From positions 1-21,992 of IMG/VR virus record IMGVR_UViG_3300025000_000453: a stretch of 21,992 bases of DNA. One strand, written 5' to 3'. This stretch comes from a virus. Both the position numbers and the translations under genes were made by a program. Below are positions 820-19,997 of the stretch, one piece after another. The notes beneath the pieces were generated by a model that saw only the letters and a list, made by a program, of their open reading frames with translations, did no database searches and was not told the DNA's origin. How positions within the stretch are numbered: position 1 is the stretch's first letter; the number at the start of each line of letters is the position of its first letter.

Positions 820-1575
820 ATGAAAGGTAAATTAATTGTTATTGAAGGTGTAGATGGGTCAGGAAAAGAAACCCAATCTAAATTATTAACTAATTTATTA
901 AATTCTTTATCAGTTGAAACTAAATTATTATCATTTCCAAATTATAATGATTATTCATCTTATTTAGTTAATAAATATTTATCAGGTGAATTTATAAAAA
1001 ATAATAATTTAGATGTGTTAAGTTATATAAAACAAATATCAAGTTTTTATAGTGTGGATAGAGTTTATACTTTATTTAATAAGAAAAGTGATATTAAGAG
1101 TTATTATGAAAGATTATTAGATGGTTTAAATATAATTTGTGATAGATATACAACTTCTAATATATTACATATGTCAGCTAATTTACAATTAAATGATAAT
1201 GGAAAAGATATATATTCATATGTTGACTGGATACAATTTATGGAATATAGTATGTTTAAATTACCAAAACCAGATTTAGTTATATTTTTAGATGTTAACA
1301 TTAGAAATGTTATACAAAATTTAGAAAATCGTAGTAATCAGAATATAAATGATATAAATGATATTCATGAAAAGAAAAATCATCAATACTCTGTAAATAG
1401 AATAAAATATAGTATTATTCCTTTATGTGGATGGGAGAGAATTGATTGTATGTCTGAAAATAATAGATATGAAATGTTGAGTAAAGAAGAAATAACTGAA
1501 AAAATTATTCAAGTTATTAATAAAAAATTTAATGTTAATTATACAAGTTATATCCATGATATTAAAATCACTTAA
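820..1575 (+). CDS. tmk: Thymidylate kinase (dTMP kinase)
   Basis: The enzyme phosphorylates dTMP to dTDP with ATP, in the cytoplasm, and is the step after thymidylate synthase. The Walker A loop is clear at residues 10-18 (GVDGSGKET). It is followed by SFP near 38-40, a phosphate-side segment, and the DRY motif at 108-110 (ICDRYTTSN), all in the spacing typical of dTMP kinases. A hydrophobic strand ending in D (PDLVIFLDV) follows. At 251 residues it is somewhat longer than the usual 200-215, mostly through an Asn/Asp-rich segment near the LID region. The start is fixed by AAAGGAG seven bases upstream. It opens a cluster with dCMP deaminase and ThyX, which together would raise dTTP supply. 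Confidence 0.92.
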   Translation: MKGKLIVIEGVDGSGKETQSKLLTNLLNSLSVETKLLSFPNYNDYSSYLVNKYLSGEFIKNNNLDVLSYIKQISSFYSVDRVYTLFNKKSDIKSYYERLLDGLNIICDRYTTSNILHMSANLQLNDNGKDIYSYVDWIQFMEYSMFKLPKPDLVIFLDVNIRNVIQNLENRSNQNINDINDIHEKKNHQYSVNRIKYSIIPLCGWERIDCMSENNRYEMLSKEEITEKIIQVINKKFNVNYTSYIHDIKIT

Positions 1576-1622: not shown

Positions 1623-2813
1623 ATGGGACTTACTTCTACTTTTTTCCTAAAAACAAAATGTCAAAATTGTGAATTTTTTAAAACACGTCAATGTCCAGGA
1701 ATTTTTATTGGTAAAAAAGGTGAGATTTTTAATGAATCTATAGGAATAAAATGTTTATTAGAAAATACATTACATGAAGAATGTGAAAAGTGTTATCAAT
1801 TACATCAAATGGATTGTGCTGGTATTCATAAACCAAGAGAATTAGATTGTTTTTTACATCGAAAAGAAAGTAGTTTAATAGAATTAAAATATAGTAAATA
1901 TATGGAACGAACATACAAATTATCTACAAATTCCACATGTTTAAGTAGAAAAGTGGGTTGTGTTATTGTAAAAAATGATAAGATTATTGCAGAATCCTAT
2001 AATTACACTATTAATTGTAAAGATGTATGTAGAAGAAAAAAAGAAAATATACCTTCTGGTAGTAGATCAGATATTTGTAATTCAATACATGCTGAATTTC
2101 AAGCTTTAGATAAAGCTGGTGATAATGCACATGGTGCCGACCTGTTTGTTAATTGTTCACCATGTTTTTTATGTGCTAAAATAATTATTCATAAAGGTAT
2201 TAAAAGAGTGATATATGATGAACTTTATAATGATATTGAAGCTATTAATTTATTAAAAGATACAGGTATTGAATTGATTCAAATTAAAGAATTAATTAAG
2301 TTGGAACAACAAAAGATGGAAGATAAAAATAAAATGAATTTACATGAATCAGAACCTAACTGGTGTGAAAAACAACGTATTGATACATTAGAACAATTTG
2401 CTGAAATTAATAGAAAAAAGGGTATTAAAGAGGAGAAAGAAAGAATTATTCAGTTATTACAAGATAAGAAATTCTTCTGTCAAGTAAAAGATATTGACAA
2501 GTATAAAATATATAGTGATCTTATTAGATTTATAAATGGTGATATCGTAGAAAACAAAATTGGTAATACACTTATTTTAGTCGATATAAAAGAAAATTTA
2601 TCTGATTTAGCTCATCGAATGTGGTCAGGTTGGATGGAATATTTATTTAGTAAATGTATTACAAATGAAAATGGTTCACTCACTATACCTCAAGAATTTG
2701 TTGAAAGATGGTCTAGACAAATAGACACCTGTTATAAAGATTTAAGTGAAGAAGAAAAAAATAGTGATAGAATTGAAGCAGAAAGAATTATTACAATTTT
2801 AAAAGATATTTAA
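1623..2813 (+). CDS. dCMP deaminase with Cys-rich N-terminus and phage C-terminal helical domain
   Basis: The middle part (about residues 85-225) is a zinc-dependent deoxycytidylate deaminase, converting dCMP to dUMP, the substrate of thymidylate synthase. The catalytic HAE motif is at 156-158 and the zinc ligands lie in PCFLC at 180-184. An N-terminal extension of about 80 residues has paired cysteines (C13/C16, C54/C57, plus C24, C44, C65 and C76) that could hold structural zinc. The C-terminal part (about 327-392) has LAHRMWSGWMEYLFSKC, then SLTIPQEFVERW, then LSEEEKNSDRIEAERI. I recognise this helical module as recurrent in phage proteins, usually outside deaminases. At 396 residues the protein is more than twice the usual 150-180. 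The start follows GGAGGGG. It lies between dTMP kinase and ThyX genes. Confidence 0.87.
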   Translation: MGLTSTFFLKTKCQNCEFFKTRQCPGIFIGKKGEIFNESIGIKCLLENTLHEECEKCYQLHQMDCAGIHKPRELDCFLHRKESSLIELKYSKYMERTYKLSTNSTCLSRKVGCVIVKNDKIIAESYNYTINCKDVCRRKKENIPSGSRSDICNSIHAEFQALDKAGDNAHGADLFVNCSPCFLCAKIIIHKGIKRVIYDELYNDIEAINLLKDTGIELIQIKELIKLEQQKMEDKNKMNLHESEPNWCEKQRIDTLEQFAEINRKKGIKEEKERIIQLLQDKKFFCQVKDIDKYKIYSDLIRFINGDIVENKIGNTLILVDIKENLSDLAHRMWSGWMEYLFSKCITNENGSLTIPQEFVERWSRQIDTCYKDLSEEEKNSDRIEAERIITILKDI

Positions 2814-2859: not shown

Positions 2860-4188
2860 ATGGAAATTACTGTTGTAAGTACAAGTGGATTGATGGATAT
2901 TAAAAATTTGGTGGTTAAAAATAAACTTAAACTATGTATGTCTGAATTACGTGAATTATTAAAATTTACAAATATTTTTTTTATATTAGAAGGAATTAAT
3001 AGGGTACAAAGTACTCTAATATGTGAATGTAAAGATTCATATGTACAACAAAGTCAACGATATGTTCAAATGAATTCAAATGCTTATACTAAAATGGAAG
3101 GGTTGGATGAAAAAGATATTAATAAAGCCCATTCATTAATAGAAAAGTGTTTTACTTTATATTCAAAAATGAGTGAAACTAAAGAAGGTTGTAAAGGTAG
3201 ACCTAAAATAGAAGATTTTAAATATGCAATTAATTTTGAAGATGCCAGGTATATTTTACCTCTAGCAACTAAAACCAATATCAGTATTTCATTAACAGGC
3301 GATAAATTAATTGATATGTTATTTTACCTTGCTGAATACAAATATATTAATGACGAATTAATTAATCTAATAATAAATAAATTATCTTTAAATTATTTTG
3401 GTATAACAATCGATAGTTTTAAGAAAGAGCAAACATATAATTCAAAATTACTCGAATCATATAAATTTAATCTCTTTAATACTATTGAAAATACTGGTGA
3501 ATGTGTATTATTAAATTCACATATGTTTGCTAATGAAAATGTTGGTTTAGCGGCAATTACAAGTACTGAACAATCACCAACAGAATCATATATAGATAAA
3601 TATAATAATAGTCAAGATGAATTAGTTGGTGTTATAGAAAGGGTTCTTGGTTATGGTCATAAAGGAATAGCAGAACATTGTAGAAATTCTTTCTTATTGT
3701 CATGTAGTCTTTCATCATATCATCAGCAGATAAGACATAGAATTCCAACTATAATAAGAGAAGATTTATTTGATATTATTGTTTTAAATAATAGGGAAGT
3801 TTATATTCCTGAATCGATTAAAAATTCAATTTTCATCGATGAATATATTGATTTAATTTCTAGAATTAAAAAATTTAGGTTAGAATTACTTAGTAGAAAA
3901 GGTAGATATACTTTAGTATTACCTTTATTATTAAATTGTGATATGGTAAAATATTTTATTAGTAATAATGCAAGAGCTGATGTTGAAATGTTGAAAGATA
4001 GATTATGTATGACAGCTCAAACCGAAATAAGAGAAAACTCAACCAAGAAAGTTATTCAATTGAAAAAAATATCAAAAGTATTATTTGAAGAGGCCGAACC
4101 CCCTTGTGTTAAAGGTAAGTGTAAAGAGGGTGATTTAACATGTGGAAAAACTAAAGAAGTAAAAGAAAAGTTTACTAATCTTTATTAA
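2860..4188 (+). CDS. thyX: Tandem (duplicated) flavin-dependent thymidylate synthase ThyX
   Basis: ThyX makes dTMP from dUMP using methylenetetrahydrofolate, FAD and NADPH. This 442-residue protein is twice the usual length of about 220 and reads as two ThyX folds. The first half has GINR at 45-48, then CEC at 55-57 where the signature RHR should be, then SQRY at 65-68 and ARYILPLAT at 129-137. The second half has GHKGIAEH around 266-273, an intact IRHR at 291-294, but IPTIIREDL in place of the usual S-N-E-S-R-Y part, then GRYTLVLPLL and NARADVEMLKDRLCMTAQTEIRE, the usual ThyX C-terminal flavin/dUMP region. The conserved signature is thus split between halves. The tail carries four Cys (C416, C421, C428 and nearby). 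AGGGG precedes the start. Confidence 0.82.
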   Translation: MEITVVSTSGLMDIKNLVVKNKLKLCMSELRELLKFTNIFFILEGINRVQSTLICECKDSYVQQSQRYVQMNSNAYTKMEGLDEKDINKAHSLIEKCFTLYSKMSETKEGCKGRPKIEDFKYAINFEDARYILPLATKTNISISLTGDKLIDMLFYLAEYKYINDELINLIINKLSLNYFGITIDSFKKEQTYNSKLLESYKFNLFNTIENTGECVLLNSHMFANENVGLAAITSTEQSPTESYIDKYNNSQDELVGVIERVLGYGHKGIAEHCRNSFLLSCSLSSYHQQIRHRIPTIIREDLFDIIVLNNREVYIPESIKNSIFIDEYIDLISRIKKFRLELLSRKGRYTLVLPLLLNCDMVKYFISNNARADVEMLKDRLCMTAQTEIRENSTKKVIQLKKISKVLFEEAEPPCVKGKCKEGDLTCGKTKEVKEKFTNLY

Positions 4189-4216: not shown

Positions 4217-4588
4217 ATGGAAAAACTTATTTGTGGGTTAAAAATGAATAAAAATACAGAAATTTATCATGAAGATAAAAAGGATATGGTTTTTAATAAT
4301 ATTCATCATTTCCAAATTAAAGAAGCCAGTTATATTAGAGAATCAAACAATATCTTATCATCAATTACTTTTCAGCAAGGTCCAGTAAAAGAAAATGGGC
4401 TTAGTGGTATTTTTGATGAAGATTTGTTATCTATACTTATTTGTAGATTAGAACATTATCAACAAAGTGAATATAGATGTAGAGAAACTGCTGTTGCTTT
4501 AACTAAATTGGAAGAAGCTTTTTTATGGTTAAATAAACGAACTATTGAAAGAACTAATAGACAAGTTGAAGGAACAAGTGAAAAATAA
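4217..4588 (+). CDS. Acb2/Tad1-type hairpin protein, candidate cyclic-nucleotide sponge (anti-CBASS)
   Basis: The protein has 123 residues. From residue 52 it matches a phage family pattern that I recall as the Acb2/Tad1 hairpin domain: FQQGPVKENGLSG, then EDLLSILICRLEHYQ, then CRETAVALTKLEEAFLWLNKRT and RQVEGT at the end. Acb2 proteins are small oligomers that bind and sequester cyclic di- and trinucleotides, so blocking CBASS immunity; they are not enzymes. No transmembrane segment or signal peptide is seen. The first 50 residues look like a strand-rich extension. It sits directly after ThyX and before the holin, an odd position that fits a moron-type defence-evasion gene. The family call is from memory of the conserved pattern; the ligand is unknown. 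Confidence 0.68.
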   Translation: MEKLICGLKMNKNTEIYHEDKKDMVFNNIHHFQIKEASYIRESNNILSSITFQQGPVKENGLSGIFDEDLLSILICRLEHYQQSEYRCRETAVALTKLEEAFLWLNKRTIERTNRQVEGTSEK

Positions 4589-7927: not shown

Positions 7928-8590
7928 ATGAGGCTACCTAAGATTGATAATTACGAAAATAAGAATAAAATTGAATATGTTAAAATAAACGAATTACCAA
8001 CATTAACTCGTAATGTTATTATTATGAATGAAAAAGATAAAATTAAACTTATAAAAACTATTGAAAGAATAGTTCGAAGTTCAATTGAATATAAACAATA
8101 TGTACAATATTTAAGAGATGAAATTGATATGACTCTATGCTCTTTTTTTAATAATATTAGTAATAAAGATAATAAGAGGGTTTCTATTGAAATCCATCAT
8201 GAACCATTCACTTTATTTGATTTAACACAAATAGTGTTAGAAAAGTGGATTAATGAAGAAAAAGATATAAATCCTTTATTAATAGCAGAGGAAATTGTAT
8301 TACTTCACTATAAAAATACTGTTGGATTAATACCTTTATGTATTACAGTTCATAAGTTAGTTCATAATGGTAAGATATTTATACCATTACAAAATCTATT
8401 TGGAAACTTTGTTTCCTTTATTGAAGAATATGAAAAATTTATAAGTAAAGATTTATTATCATTACTTGAAGAAAAATTTAGAATATCAAAAGAACTTGCT
8501 GAACCTGATATGAGTGTTTTAGAGAAGAAATATATTTATTTAGAAATAAAGGGATTTACTTTCCCTCAAATTATTGAAGAAAATGTATAA
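7928..8590 (+). CDS. HNH-like (His-Me finger-like) phage protein, paralogue of the minus-strand gene at 16680
   Basis: A 220-residue protein with EIHHEPFTLFDL (H90, H91) and, 51 residues on, LCITVHKLVHNGKIFIP (H142, H146). The pair HH plus VHxxxH resembles the metal and catalytic histidines of HNH/His-Me finger nucleases, where a first HH or DH is followed by an LCxxCHxxxH-like segment. The classical zinc cysteines and a clear final Asn/His are not evident, so activity is uncertain. The same blocks occur in the 216-residue minus-strand protein at 16680-17330 at almost the same distance. The gene stands alone: its RBS is buried in the inverted repeat upstream, with a late-type promoter box in the loop, and a hairpin follows it. 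Confidence 0.6.
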   Translation: MRLPKIDNYENKNKIEYVKINELPTLTRNVIIMNEKDKIKLIKTIERIVRSSIEYKQYVQYLRDEIDMTLCSFFNNISNKDNKRVSIEIHHEPFTLFDLTQIVLEKWINEEKDINPLLIAEEIVLLHYKNTVGLIPLCITVHKLVHNGKIFIPLQNLFGNFVSFIEEYEKFISKDLLSLLEEKFRISKELAEPDMSVLEKKYIYLEIKGFTFPQIIEENV

Positions 8591-16679: not shown

Positions 16680-17330
16680 TTAAAATATAATTTCATTATT
16701 AGACCATGACTTAATATTTTTTTTTAATTCAAGTACATTTTTATCAAACGAATCATATTTTTCAGATAGTTCAATATACTTATTTATTTTTTGTATCTGT
16801 TCAGGATGTATTCCCAGCATATATTTATTTAGGAATGTGACTAAATCACCAAAAGCTTGTTTTAAATTAATAAAAATATTTTGGATATGGACTTGTTCAT
16901 GTACAGTTTCTGATAACATTACTACTTGGATATTATTGTTTTTATGTTCCTCTAATAAAGTATTCGATATAATAAATGTATTAATTTTTTTATTTTTAGC
17001 TAAATAATAATCTGTAACTATACAAGCACAATCAAATAAAGTTAATATTGGTCCATGGTGCATATCTATTTCTGCACTTTCATCATCTATATTAGATAAA
17101 ACTTGACAACGAGTTAAACCAATATCATTCTTTAAATATGAAATATACTTTTTATAAAATTTATCACCCCTTACTTGTTTTTCAACTGCTTTAATGAAGG
17201 ATACAAAGTTATCTATATTAGAAAAATATTCTCCATCTTTATAAAAAGGTAATGTGAATAAACTTGTCTCTGAATCAATAATCGGTTTATTCTTAGTATT
17301 CTTAAATTTAATATTTGCTATACTACTCAT
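16680..17330 (-). CDS. HNH-like phage protein, minus strand, paralogue of the gene at 7928
   Basis: The only minus-strand gene. Its 216 residues carry EIDMHHGPILTLFD (H91, H92) and, 52 residues on, MLSETVHEQVHIQNIFINL (H144, H148), the same two blocks as the protein at 7928, plus matching flanks (FYKKYISYLKNDIGLT versus YKQYVQYLRDEIDMT, and QAFGDLVTFL versus NLFGNFVSFI). The HH plus VHxxxH set resembles a His-Me finger (HNH) site, but no known active enzyme is recognised. The start is Met at 17330, after AAAGGAG on the minus strand; a longer form to 17375 would lack an RBS and overlap the promoter box. It interrupts a long run of plus-strand genes, as mobile or recently moved genes often do. 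Confidence 0.68.
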   Translation of the reverse strand: MSSIANIKFKNTKNKPIIDSETSLFTLPFYKDGEYFSNIDNFVSFIKAVEKQVRGDKFYKKYISYLKNDIGLTRCQVLSNIDDESAEIDMHHGPILTLFDCACIVTDYYLAKNKKINTFIISNTLLEEHKNNNIQVVMLSETVHEQVHIQNIFINLKQAFGDLVTFLNKYMLGIHPEQIQKINKYIELSEKYDSFDKNVLELKKNIKSWSNNEIIF

Positions 17331-17375
17331 TTTTTTATTCAACTCCTTTAAAATATTTTTGAAAGTACAATTCAT

Positions 17376-17414: not shown

Positions 17415-19997
17415 ATGTATTTAATAAATAATATCTTTAATGAGATAAATTTAATTATACCTACCATTACTATTAAATTTGAAAAGGAAGCTAAATTATT
17501 AGATACTGTCGATATTTTAAGAGAAAGTGATAAATATGTATCTGCTGTATTAGGATTAGATTCCTTTAATACATATCGACAATTCAATATTGAAGTGATA
17601 ATAAATGCAGGAGTTATTAATTTAGATTTAGCAAAAGAATATTCAGAAGATAAACTAAAAATACCTTATAATTTAAGAGATATAATTATACTAAAACAAA
17701 GAGAATATATTATAAATAATTATATTGAAAAAAATAATTATTATAGAACACTAAATGGTTTACCTAATATAGAAGATAATAATTTTATTTATTTAGATGA
17801 AGAAACTTGTATTAAACTAAATTTAGCTTATGGTATACCTATTCATAATTATTCTATCGAAGATATTAATATAATTAAAAATGTTAGATTGTTAGAAACA
17901 TTGAAAATAAATTATCCAAATAAAAAATATCTTAATTATCTTGGTTCTGATAAGATTGATATCGTATATGCTAGAAAAGCTAAAAATTTCTCTATATTAC
18001 AAATGACAAAAGATATATCTGATAGTATGTATATAAAATTTAATCAATTTTATAATAACTCAAGAGAATATTTTATGACTGTAATCTATATAAAAGAATA
18101 TAGTAAAACATATGATTTATATGATAATTTTATTGCATTGTGTATAATGTTTATGACAATTCAAAGAACCTTTTCAGATGTATTTAAAGTTGGTATAACA
18201 AGAGATTTTTATGACTTAGAATCAATAAAAATGATGTTTGAATCTTATAATGTACCTTTTTTATCTTATTTATCTTTAGATTATCAAAGAATTATTTTAA
18301 AAAATTTAAATAATTTACTAAGATATAAATCAACGGATAAAGTATTATATGATTTATGTTCTTTATTAAATTTTGAAAGGGTTAGAATATTCTCATATTA
18401 TTTAATAAAAGAACATAATTTAGATGAAAATAAAAATCCTTTGTTTTTTTATAAAGAAGAAATTGATGCTTCAGGTAATACTGTAATTGTTGAAGATGTA
18501 GAACGAATGTATTCATTATATTTTCAATTAGTTGATATAAGTGAACGAAATGTCGCTCTTGCATTAGAAAATAATAATAATAAATTAAATTACAATGAAG
18601 TTATTGTTGAAGACCCCTATTGGATTGATGAAGAAGTTAAAGATAAATTATATAAAGAGGATTTTAATTTTATTGAGAATAAATATCTAAGTATTCAATT
18701 GATGTATAAAATGACCGAAATGTTATTTGAAGTTATTTATTTTTTAAAATTATTATTAGATAAAAAAAATGAAGTTTCTAATATATTAGTCAAATTGCCT
18801 AAAATTTTTAGTAATAGAGAATTTGATATATTTCATGTTGTAGTATTTTTATTAGCTTTAATAAGTAAAAAGAATAAAATGGCTGGTAATATTTTATACA
18901 CACCATCAAAAATATTAGCAGTAATGGGATTTAATTTTAAAAATGATTTTAATATAATACGTCAATATATAAATGAAAATTCAAATCTAATAGATATAAA
19001 TATTCTTAATTATATAAATAATTTAAATATAACAAGTGTTGATGATATTAATAATCTTTATGTTAATATTAAAGGTCTAAATGATTTTATTGTTACTAAA
19101 TTGGCAACTTCTCAGAATATAGATGAATATAGAGCGTATGTTAAACTATATAATTCTTTAATGGTTTCTGATGAAACTAATGAAATATTTATGAAATCTA
19201 ATGGAGATATAGCTACAACTTTTTTAGATTATTTAAAAGATGTTAATATTGATATGTATAATACAATTATTTCATCTAGTGACGATGAAATATCTGAATA
19301 TATTAGACATAGTGTATTTAGATTAAAGAGACTTGTTACTGAATTAAAATATATAGAGATGTTTTTTAATGATTTTAATACTGGTATAATGAAAGCATTA
19401 GTAACATTCATAGATTTTTTTAAATCATATACAACTGATATTGCATCATTAAATGTGGTTTATTTAATGAATAGTAAATATTTTAATATGATTAAATTGA
19501 TACATGATATTAAAAATATTAATAAAATATTAGGTATACAAGATATTTTTAATTTTAGCTATAAAGATATTATCAATTCTTTTAATATTAATATTAGTAA
19601 AGATGATAAAATTTTATTAATAGAAAATCTTATTAAATCATATAAAACTTTGTTAGAAAAAGAACATTTTTCATATAGTGAGAATAAAATTAGTCTAACT
19701 AAAAATTCTATAATAAGAGAAGAATATAATATATTATCATCTAATATTATCAATTCTTTTAATATTAATATTAGTAAAGATGATAAAATTTTATTAATAG
19801 AAAATCTTATTAAATCATATAAAACTTTATTAGAAAAAGAACGGTTTTCATATAGTGAAAATAAAATTAGCTTAACCAAAAATTCCACAATAAGAGAAGA
19901 ATATAATATATTATCATCTAATATTATCAATTCTTTGATAATGAATAAAACTCCTCTAACAATACGAGATAATATTAATATTATTCGTGAATTATAA
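17415..19997 (+). CDS. Large virion-type structural protein, 860 aa, with duplicated C-terminal segment
   Basis: An 860-residue protein resembling large structural proteins, possibly of the baseplate or neck, that I recall from SPO1-like and giant phages of Gram-positive hosts. Recognisable stretches are NLNNLLRYKSTDKVLYDLC around residue 300, EDPYWIDEEVKDKLYKEDFNFI around 400, and NKYLSIQLMYKMTEMLFEV shortly after. No enzyme motif, signal or membrane segment is seen; it is rich in Asn, Ile, Asp and Lys. Residues 719-777 and 778-836 are an almost perfect tandem repeat (two differences in 59). AAAGGAGG stands 12 bases before the ATG, a long spacing. It is divergent from the minus-strand gene. 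The virion assignment rests on memory of the family. Confidence 0.72.
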   Translation: MYLINNIFNEINLIIPTITIKFEKEAKLLDTVDILRESDKYVSAVLGLDSFNTYRQFNIEVIINAGVINLDLAKEYSEDKLKIPYNLRDIIILKQREYIINNYIEKNNYYRTLNGLPNIEDNNFIYLDEETCIKLNLAYGIPIHNYSIEDINIIKNVRLLETLKINYPNKKYLNYLGSDKIDIVYARKAKNFSILQMTKDISDSMYIKFNQFYNNSREYFMTVIYIKEYSKTYDLYDNFIALCIMFMTIQRTFSDVFKVGITRDFYDLESIKMMFESYNVPFLSYLSLDYQRIILKNLNNLLRYKSTDKVLYDLCSLLNFERVRIFSYYLIKEHNLDENKNPLFFYKEEIDASGNTVIVEDVERMYSLYFQLVDISERNVALALENNNNKLNYNEVIVEDPYWIDEEVKDKLYKEDFNFIENKYLSIQLMYKMTEMLFEVIYFLKLLLDKKNEVSNILVKLPKIFSNREFDIFHVVVFLLALISKKNKMAGNILYTPSKILAVMGFNFKNDFNIIRQYINENSNLIDINILNYINNLNITSVDDINNLYVNIKGLNDFIVTKLATSQNIDEYRAYVKLYNSLMVSDETNEIFMKSNGDIATTFLDYLKDVNIDMYNTIISSSDDEISEYIRHSVFRLKRLVTELKYIEMFFNDFNTGIMKALVTFIDFFKSYTTDIASLNVVYLMNSKYFNMIKLIHDIKNINKILGIQDIFNFSYKDIINSFNINISKDDKILLIENLIKSYKTLLEKEHFSYSENKISLTKNSIIREEYNILSSNIINSFNINISKDDKILLIENLIKSYKTLLEKERFSYSENKISLTKNSTIREEYNILSSNIINSLIMNKTPLTIRDNINIIREL
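19569..19922 (+). repeat. Two 177-bp in-frame tandem copies plus a 14-base partial third
   Basis: Copies at 19569-19745 and 19746-19922 differ at about nine of 177 bases (about 95 % identity) and two of 59 residues (His to Arg, Ile to Thr). ATTATCAATTCTTT at 19923 starts a third copy that then departs. The period is an exact multiple of three, so the frame is kept. Confidence 0.95.

Follow-up and report, generated by a model that had tools for sequence, protein, structure and literature searches.

A tandem ThyX encoded by a phage carries complementary parts of one predicted active site in its two halves

A double-length ThyX gene

The window, the whole stretch of viral DNA that was analysed (21,992 nucleotides), contains a gene at positions 2860..4188 (+ strand, as are all features within this gene given below) that starts with ATG and encodes a protein 442 aa long with two Thy1 domains. 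The N-terminal half (N-half; about residues 1-190, 2860..3429) is ThyX-like and shortened at both ends, and is followed by a ThyX-like C-terminal half (C-half; residues 211-442, 3490..4185). The Pfam Thy1 model (PF02511, cut-off 24.8 bits) matched the protein twice (E 2.1e-29; 103 bits for the whole protein), and residues 1-218 and 219-442 each exceeded the cut-off when taken alone (1.2e-11, 45.2 bits, and 1.8e-16, 60.9 bits, respectively). A sequence-only reading of this DNA had proposed two ThyX domains in one chain; this proposal holds, and neither half fails to match a ThyX profile. Against the NCBIfam thyX equivalog TIGR02170, a model of 211 positions and thus of single-domain length, the window protein scored 70.1 bits, below the cut-off of 87.9, as expected of a divergent form of ThyX. 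Two phage relatives scored 80.0 and 87.0, and a relative from the bacterial genome G062 scored 73.3. The full RHR...S.RY signature does not occur within one domain and is instead divided between the halves, so we class the protein as a tandem variant rather than as a canonical ThyX. The gene is preceded by genes predicted to encode a thymidylate kinase (820..1575, +; PF02223, 2e-15) and a dCMP deaminase (1623..2813, +; PF00383, 2.4e-19; phrog_174, 9e-36), both syntenic in L003 and L004, two other phage contigs that keep the order thymidylate kinase, dCMP deaminase, ThyX.

The AF2 model of the full chain, made from 47 alignment rows, had a pLDDT of 87.1 and a pTM of 0.82; an alignment of eight rows had given a pLDDT of 49.9, and the good model was obtained by adding single-domain rows from related loci. 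Comparison of the C-half model with ThyX structures gave Z scores of about 14 (residues 211-441 against T. maritima ThyX, 1o24: Z 14.4, 2.4 Å over 199 residues). The full-chain monomer prediction that the earlier reading had suggested thus bears out a ThyX fold for the C-half. The N-half was predicted with good confidence and is assigned to ThyX by sequence, the structural matches listed all falling on the one domain formed by residues 211-442.

Catalytic residues are divided between the two halves

Tandem proteins were aligned to T. maritima ThyX, and positions such as S88, R90 and R78 are numbered according to that protein. In the N-half of the window protein, R48 (3001..3003) corresponds to R87 of Mtb ThyX (T. 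maritima position 70), a dUMP contact whose arginine is confined to the N-half in the window's group. C55-E56-C57 (3022..3030) occupies the site of the lost RHR, S65-Q66-R67-Y68 (3052..3063) corresponds to the S88/R90/Y91 active-site loop, and R130 within EDAR (3247..3249) corresponds to R147. The C-half contains GHKGIAEH at residues 266-273 (3655..3678), the H53/T55/E58 FAD helix that the N-half lacks, together with R292-H293-R294 (3733..3741; RHR 78-80), N370-A371-R372 (3967..3975; N163/R165, FAD phosphate) and R381 (4000..4002; R174, dUMP activation). The sequence and alignment agree with the earlier statements that the N-half has CEC at 55-57 in place of RHR and keeps SQRY at 65-68, and that the C-half keeps IRHR at 291-294 and lacks the S-N-E-S-R-Y part. 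All dUMP- and FAD-contacting positions are represented in the chain. The window protein has G at position 55 (S/T), as do phage C-halves.

The losses in the two halves are complementary beyond chance. The group consensus for the window's group has each of 13 catalytic or cofactor positions in exactly one half, four in the N-half and nine in the C-half, an arrangement with a probability of 1 in 715 under random marks. Among 62 conserved ThyX columns, 18 were lost in both halves versus 24.8 expected (permutation p 0.00015). The earlier reading had called for alignment with other tandem ThyX proteins, and this revealed the same partition in all 24 distinct proteins, which belong to four groups. 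Every N-half has S88, R90 and R147 and lacks R78 and H79; every C-half has R78, H79, R80 and R174 and lacks S88, R90 and R147. Y91 is present in the N-halves with the exception of G254, which has E there.

We also considered the suggestion that CEC and the cysteine-rich tail form an additional metal or redox site. SQRY and IRHR are conserved in phage relatives at about 73-78% identity. CEC is found only in these relatives, with CEL or CEM in more distant ones. The tail, CVKGKCKEGDLTCGK (residues 416-430, 4105..4149), has the same motif in single-domain clostridial ThyX, and is thus a general feature of the single-domain ThyX of this lineage that is retained in the C-half. Because CEC is poorly conserved and the tail is general to the lineage, such a site is not supported, and a metal site at CEC was dropped as a candidate.

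Tandem ThyX proteins of phages and bacteria

Two phage contigs of 187 kb and 250 kb carry tandem ThyX proteins with about 77% and about 73% identity to that of the window, and a third contig (210 kb) carries one with 41% identity. A first bacterial example came from a probably mislabelled 'phage' record, followed by four clostridial genomes. In a sample of the same class, tandem ThyX occurred in 14 of 391 genomes, one of which was also among the first four. BFVD gave full-length, low-TM matches to a protein of the Microcystis phage LMM01 and to others, which we used as leads and then examined by sequence.

By sequence comparison, the tandem proteins of bacteria and phages fall into four divergent groups. 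Group I consists of G001-G004, G111, G384 and G254/G324; the proteins of G254 and G324 are identical, which is why 24 distinct proteins are counted. Group II contains the window, the three phage contigs and the bacteria G062, G326 and G344. Group III contains G073, G273, G306, G236, G101 and G310, and group IV consists of Parabacteroides distasonis and phages of Microcystis, Tunturiibacter and Vibrio. In the group III loci L174-L176 (G273, G306 and G073), Pfam detects the N-half only, yet the residue split is the same; these three genomes have no other recognised thymidylate synthase. The records L005, L006 and L007 (MT835736, MT835745 and MT837662) are public faecal 'Bacteriophage sp.' entries. 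Genes of a chromosomal type are present in L005 and L007 (ThyX, thymidylate kinase, acetyltransferase- or helicase-like), and a Ruminococcus MAG contains a ThyX with 97% identity to that of L005, so at least these records are probably bacterial DNA. MT835736 and similar records look like clostridial DNA. Since the window's gene groups with the bacteria of group II, the phage family probably acquired tandem ThyX from clostridial hosts.

The trees bear on whether the tandem form arose once. Independent fusions in several lineages could have converged on the same split, a history that we rate at somewhat below even chances and that is compatible with the enzyme model presented below. It is favoured by the FAD-helix elements, which lie in opposite halves in group II versus groups I, III and IV, and by the tree without motif columns, where the N-halves of group I stay apart from those of group II and a union of group II N- and C-halves is not rejected (AU p 0.19). 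Against it, the C-halves of groups I and II join in that same tree (100/94), the N-halves of groups I, II and III join when all columns are used (89/89), and the AU test does not reject a single clade for the N-halves of I and II (p 0.32). Either a single fusion with later re-placement of the FAD elements or separate fusions may account for the tandem forms.

A composite active site

One ThyX site consists of residues from three subunits; in the Mtb crystal structure these are R95-97 and R199 of subunit A, S71 and R190 of subunit B, and R87, S105, R107 and Y108 of subunit C (PMC6514825). In PBCV-1 ThyX, Q75 and R182 come from monomer A and S88 and Q89 from monomer B (PMC3498832). Tandem proteins have set A (RHR and R174) in the C-half only and the core of set C in the N-half only. 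Because these two sets come from two subunits in solved ThyX, the complementary loss fits a model in which each pair of halves forms one composite site and the opposite site is dead. The sequence-only reading had proposed such a composite site, and a partition that matches the published subunit boundaries and recurs in 24 of 24 proteins argues for it. That reading also placed the two parts of the signature in the same chain of ordinary ThyX; they do share a chain there, but each part belongs to a different active site.

The C-half alone might instead be the enzyme, or only an FAD binder, with the N-half a structural or regulatory remnant and the pattern a result of relaxed selection. The C-half is indeed longer and the better match to ThyX, and the N-half is shortened. 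However, S88, R90 and R147 are missing from the C-half of every tandem protein and persist in all 24 N-halves even though the groups have otherwise mostly diverged, and in T. maritima ThyX the S88A and R90A substitutions greatly slow consumption of the flavin intermediate (PMC8316439). We therefore regard this explanation as very improbable.

Because ThyX sites need three subunits, a composite site probably requires two chains forming a pseudo-tetramer, in which either chain could donate the N-half elements. The third set of residues differs between groups. All seven group II proteins carry H53, S55 and R165 (set B plus the helix) in the C-half, with G for S55 in the phage ones. In groups I, III and IV these residues are found in the N-half, though not every member of III and IV retains all of them, and most of group I has R165 in both halves. 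This location of set B points to a different arrangement of the pseudo-tetramer. Provided that a third subunit still supplies set B, its donor in group II would be the C-half of the other chain, and a C-half/C-half' core would hold both FADs; for the other three groups the donor would be an N-half. The two placements would predict different true two-fold axes.

Genome context supports thymidylate synthase function

We surveyed ThyA and ThyX in the 391 clostridial genomes of one class. ThyA was absent from all 14 genomes with a tandem ThyX in this sample, in which some assemblies may be incomplete. By comparison, ThyA was present in 182 of the 391 genomes overall and in 172 of the 215 without ThyX (tandem genomes versus those without ThyX, Fisher p 9e-10, not corrected for relatedness). 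ThyA was also absent from G001, G003 and G004, and no second ThyX was found in the tandem-bearing genomes. G326 and G344 have their tandem gene flanked by cysS and rlmB within the cluster gltX-cysS-thyX-rlmB-(yacP)-sigH-tuf, a locus at which several of the other genomes sampled encode a single ThyX. G062 has a thymidylate kinase gene about 2 kb downstream from its tandem gene. The absence of ThyA and of another ThyX, the standard thyX locus, and the neighbouring thymidylate kinase and dCMP deaminase genes of the phage support a predicted ThyX function of the tandem form.

The location on a phage next to a kinase gene, and a fold that includes the UMP/dUMP methylase PolB (4p5b, Z 13.0 to the C-half model), could suggest a modified pyrimidine for phage DNA, such as 5-hydroxymethyl-dUMP or the product of PolB-like methylation of another nucleotide, rather than dTMP, but this is very unlikely given that, in the bacteria of the window's group, the tandem protein is the genome's sole recognised thymidylate synthase, encoded in two of them at the housekeeping thyX locus, and that all dUMP-contacting residues are retained.

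A model for tandem ThyX

ThyX, an essential enzyme and a drug target, has been described as a homotetramer whose four identical sites are each formed by three subunits. We consider it quite probable that the window encodes a flavin-dependent thymidylate synthase in which a thyX gene was first tandemly fused and the halves then specialised into complementary parts of one predicted active site. RHR and R174, for activation of flavin and dUMP, would come from the C-half, as would the FAD-phosphate/H53 helix elements in the window's group; the N-half would provide the S-Q-R-Y loop, R48 and R130 for dUMP binding and as a lid. We infer the activity, the oligomer and the pairing of N-halves with C-halves as follows. 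Two chains would form a pseudo-tetramer with two working sites rather than four, in which a C-half/C-half' core carries both FADs and each site is closed by one N-half. With thymidylate kinase and dCMP deaminase genes preceding it, the phage enzyme is proposed to convert dCMP-derived dUMP to dTMP for viral DNA.

The C-half fold resembles the single-domain homotetramers of T. maritima (TM0449) and M. tuberculosis, which carry the same catalytic and cofactor residues once per chain, and clostridial single-domain ThyX shares the Cys tail. Tandem ThyX differs in having two halves per chain with the residues divided between them and, by our model, two sites per four domains versus four. PolB of polyoxin synthesis has a similar fold but is a single domain of an antibiotic pathway. 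LMM01 MAP_020, Tunturi_5 gp50, proteins of Vibrio Yong phages and P. distasonis WP_009276148.1 are very divergent and have the same partition of S88/R90/R147 versus RHR/R174, with the H53/S55 elements in the N-half, where Parabacteroides has D in place of H53. In Tunturi_5, dCMP deaminase adjoins tandem ThyX, as in the window phage. Their records give a plain thymidylate synthase or a hypothetical protein and do not describe the split. A literature search on tandem or duplicated ThyX, with partial coverage of subscription papers, found no description of it either. The ThyX of Chlamydia trachomatis (CT632) has about 530 aa, twice the usual length, and is reported to be active (a 2005 study by Griffin and colleagues is among the references of PMC2386288 and PMC8316439); it may be a double-length example that has already been studied. 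New here is the placement of the third set (FAD-phosphate/H53) in the opposite half in the window's group versus the three other groups.

On balance, we lean slightly towards split-site tandem ThyX being a widespread, overlooked thymidylate synthase of bacteria and phages, in which four equal sites have become two composite ones through at least two quaternary wirings, with the FAD-phosphate elements either in the RHR half or with the active-site loop. Such proteins are natural complementation experiments that reveal the subunit from which each residue has to come, and provide a test of the transition from a symmetric homomer to an obligate heteromer. Annotation by motif can overlook or misread this class of thymidylate synthase.

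Other genes of the window

Directly downstream of the ThyX gene, a small ORF (4217-4588, +) encodes a product that scored 26.9 bits with the Acb2/Tad1 hairpin model PF24729 (cut-off 27) and matched phrog_2428 (2e-36); it is possibly a cyclic-nucleotide sponge that counters CBASS/Thoeris. Comparison with stretches of L003, L004 and L014 gave no homologue. The product of 16680-17375 (-) matches the L003 and L004 orthologues of 7928-8590 (+) with 32% identity, and the two genes are likely a paralogous pair. The 860-aa protein encoded at 17415-19997 (+) has, as read by eye, a C-terminal direct repeat of some 55-70 residues (NSFNINISKDDKILLIENLIKSYKTLLEKE...).
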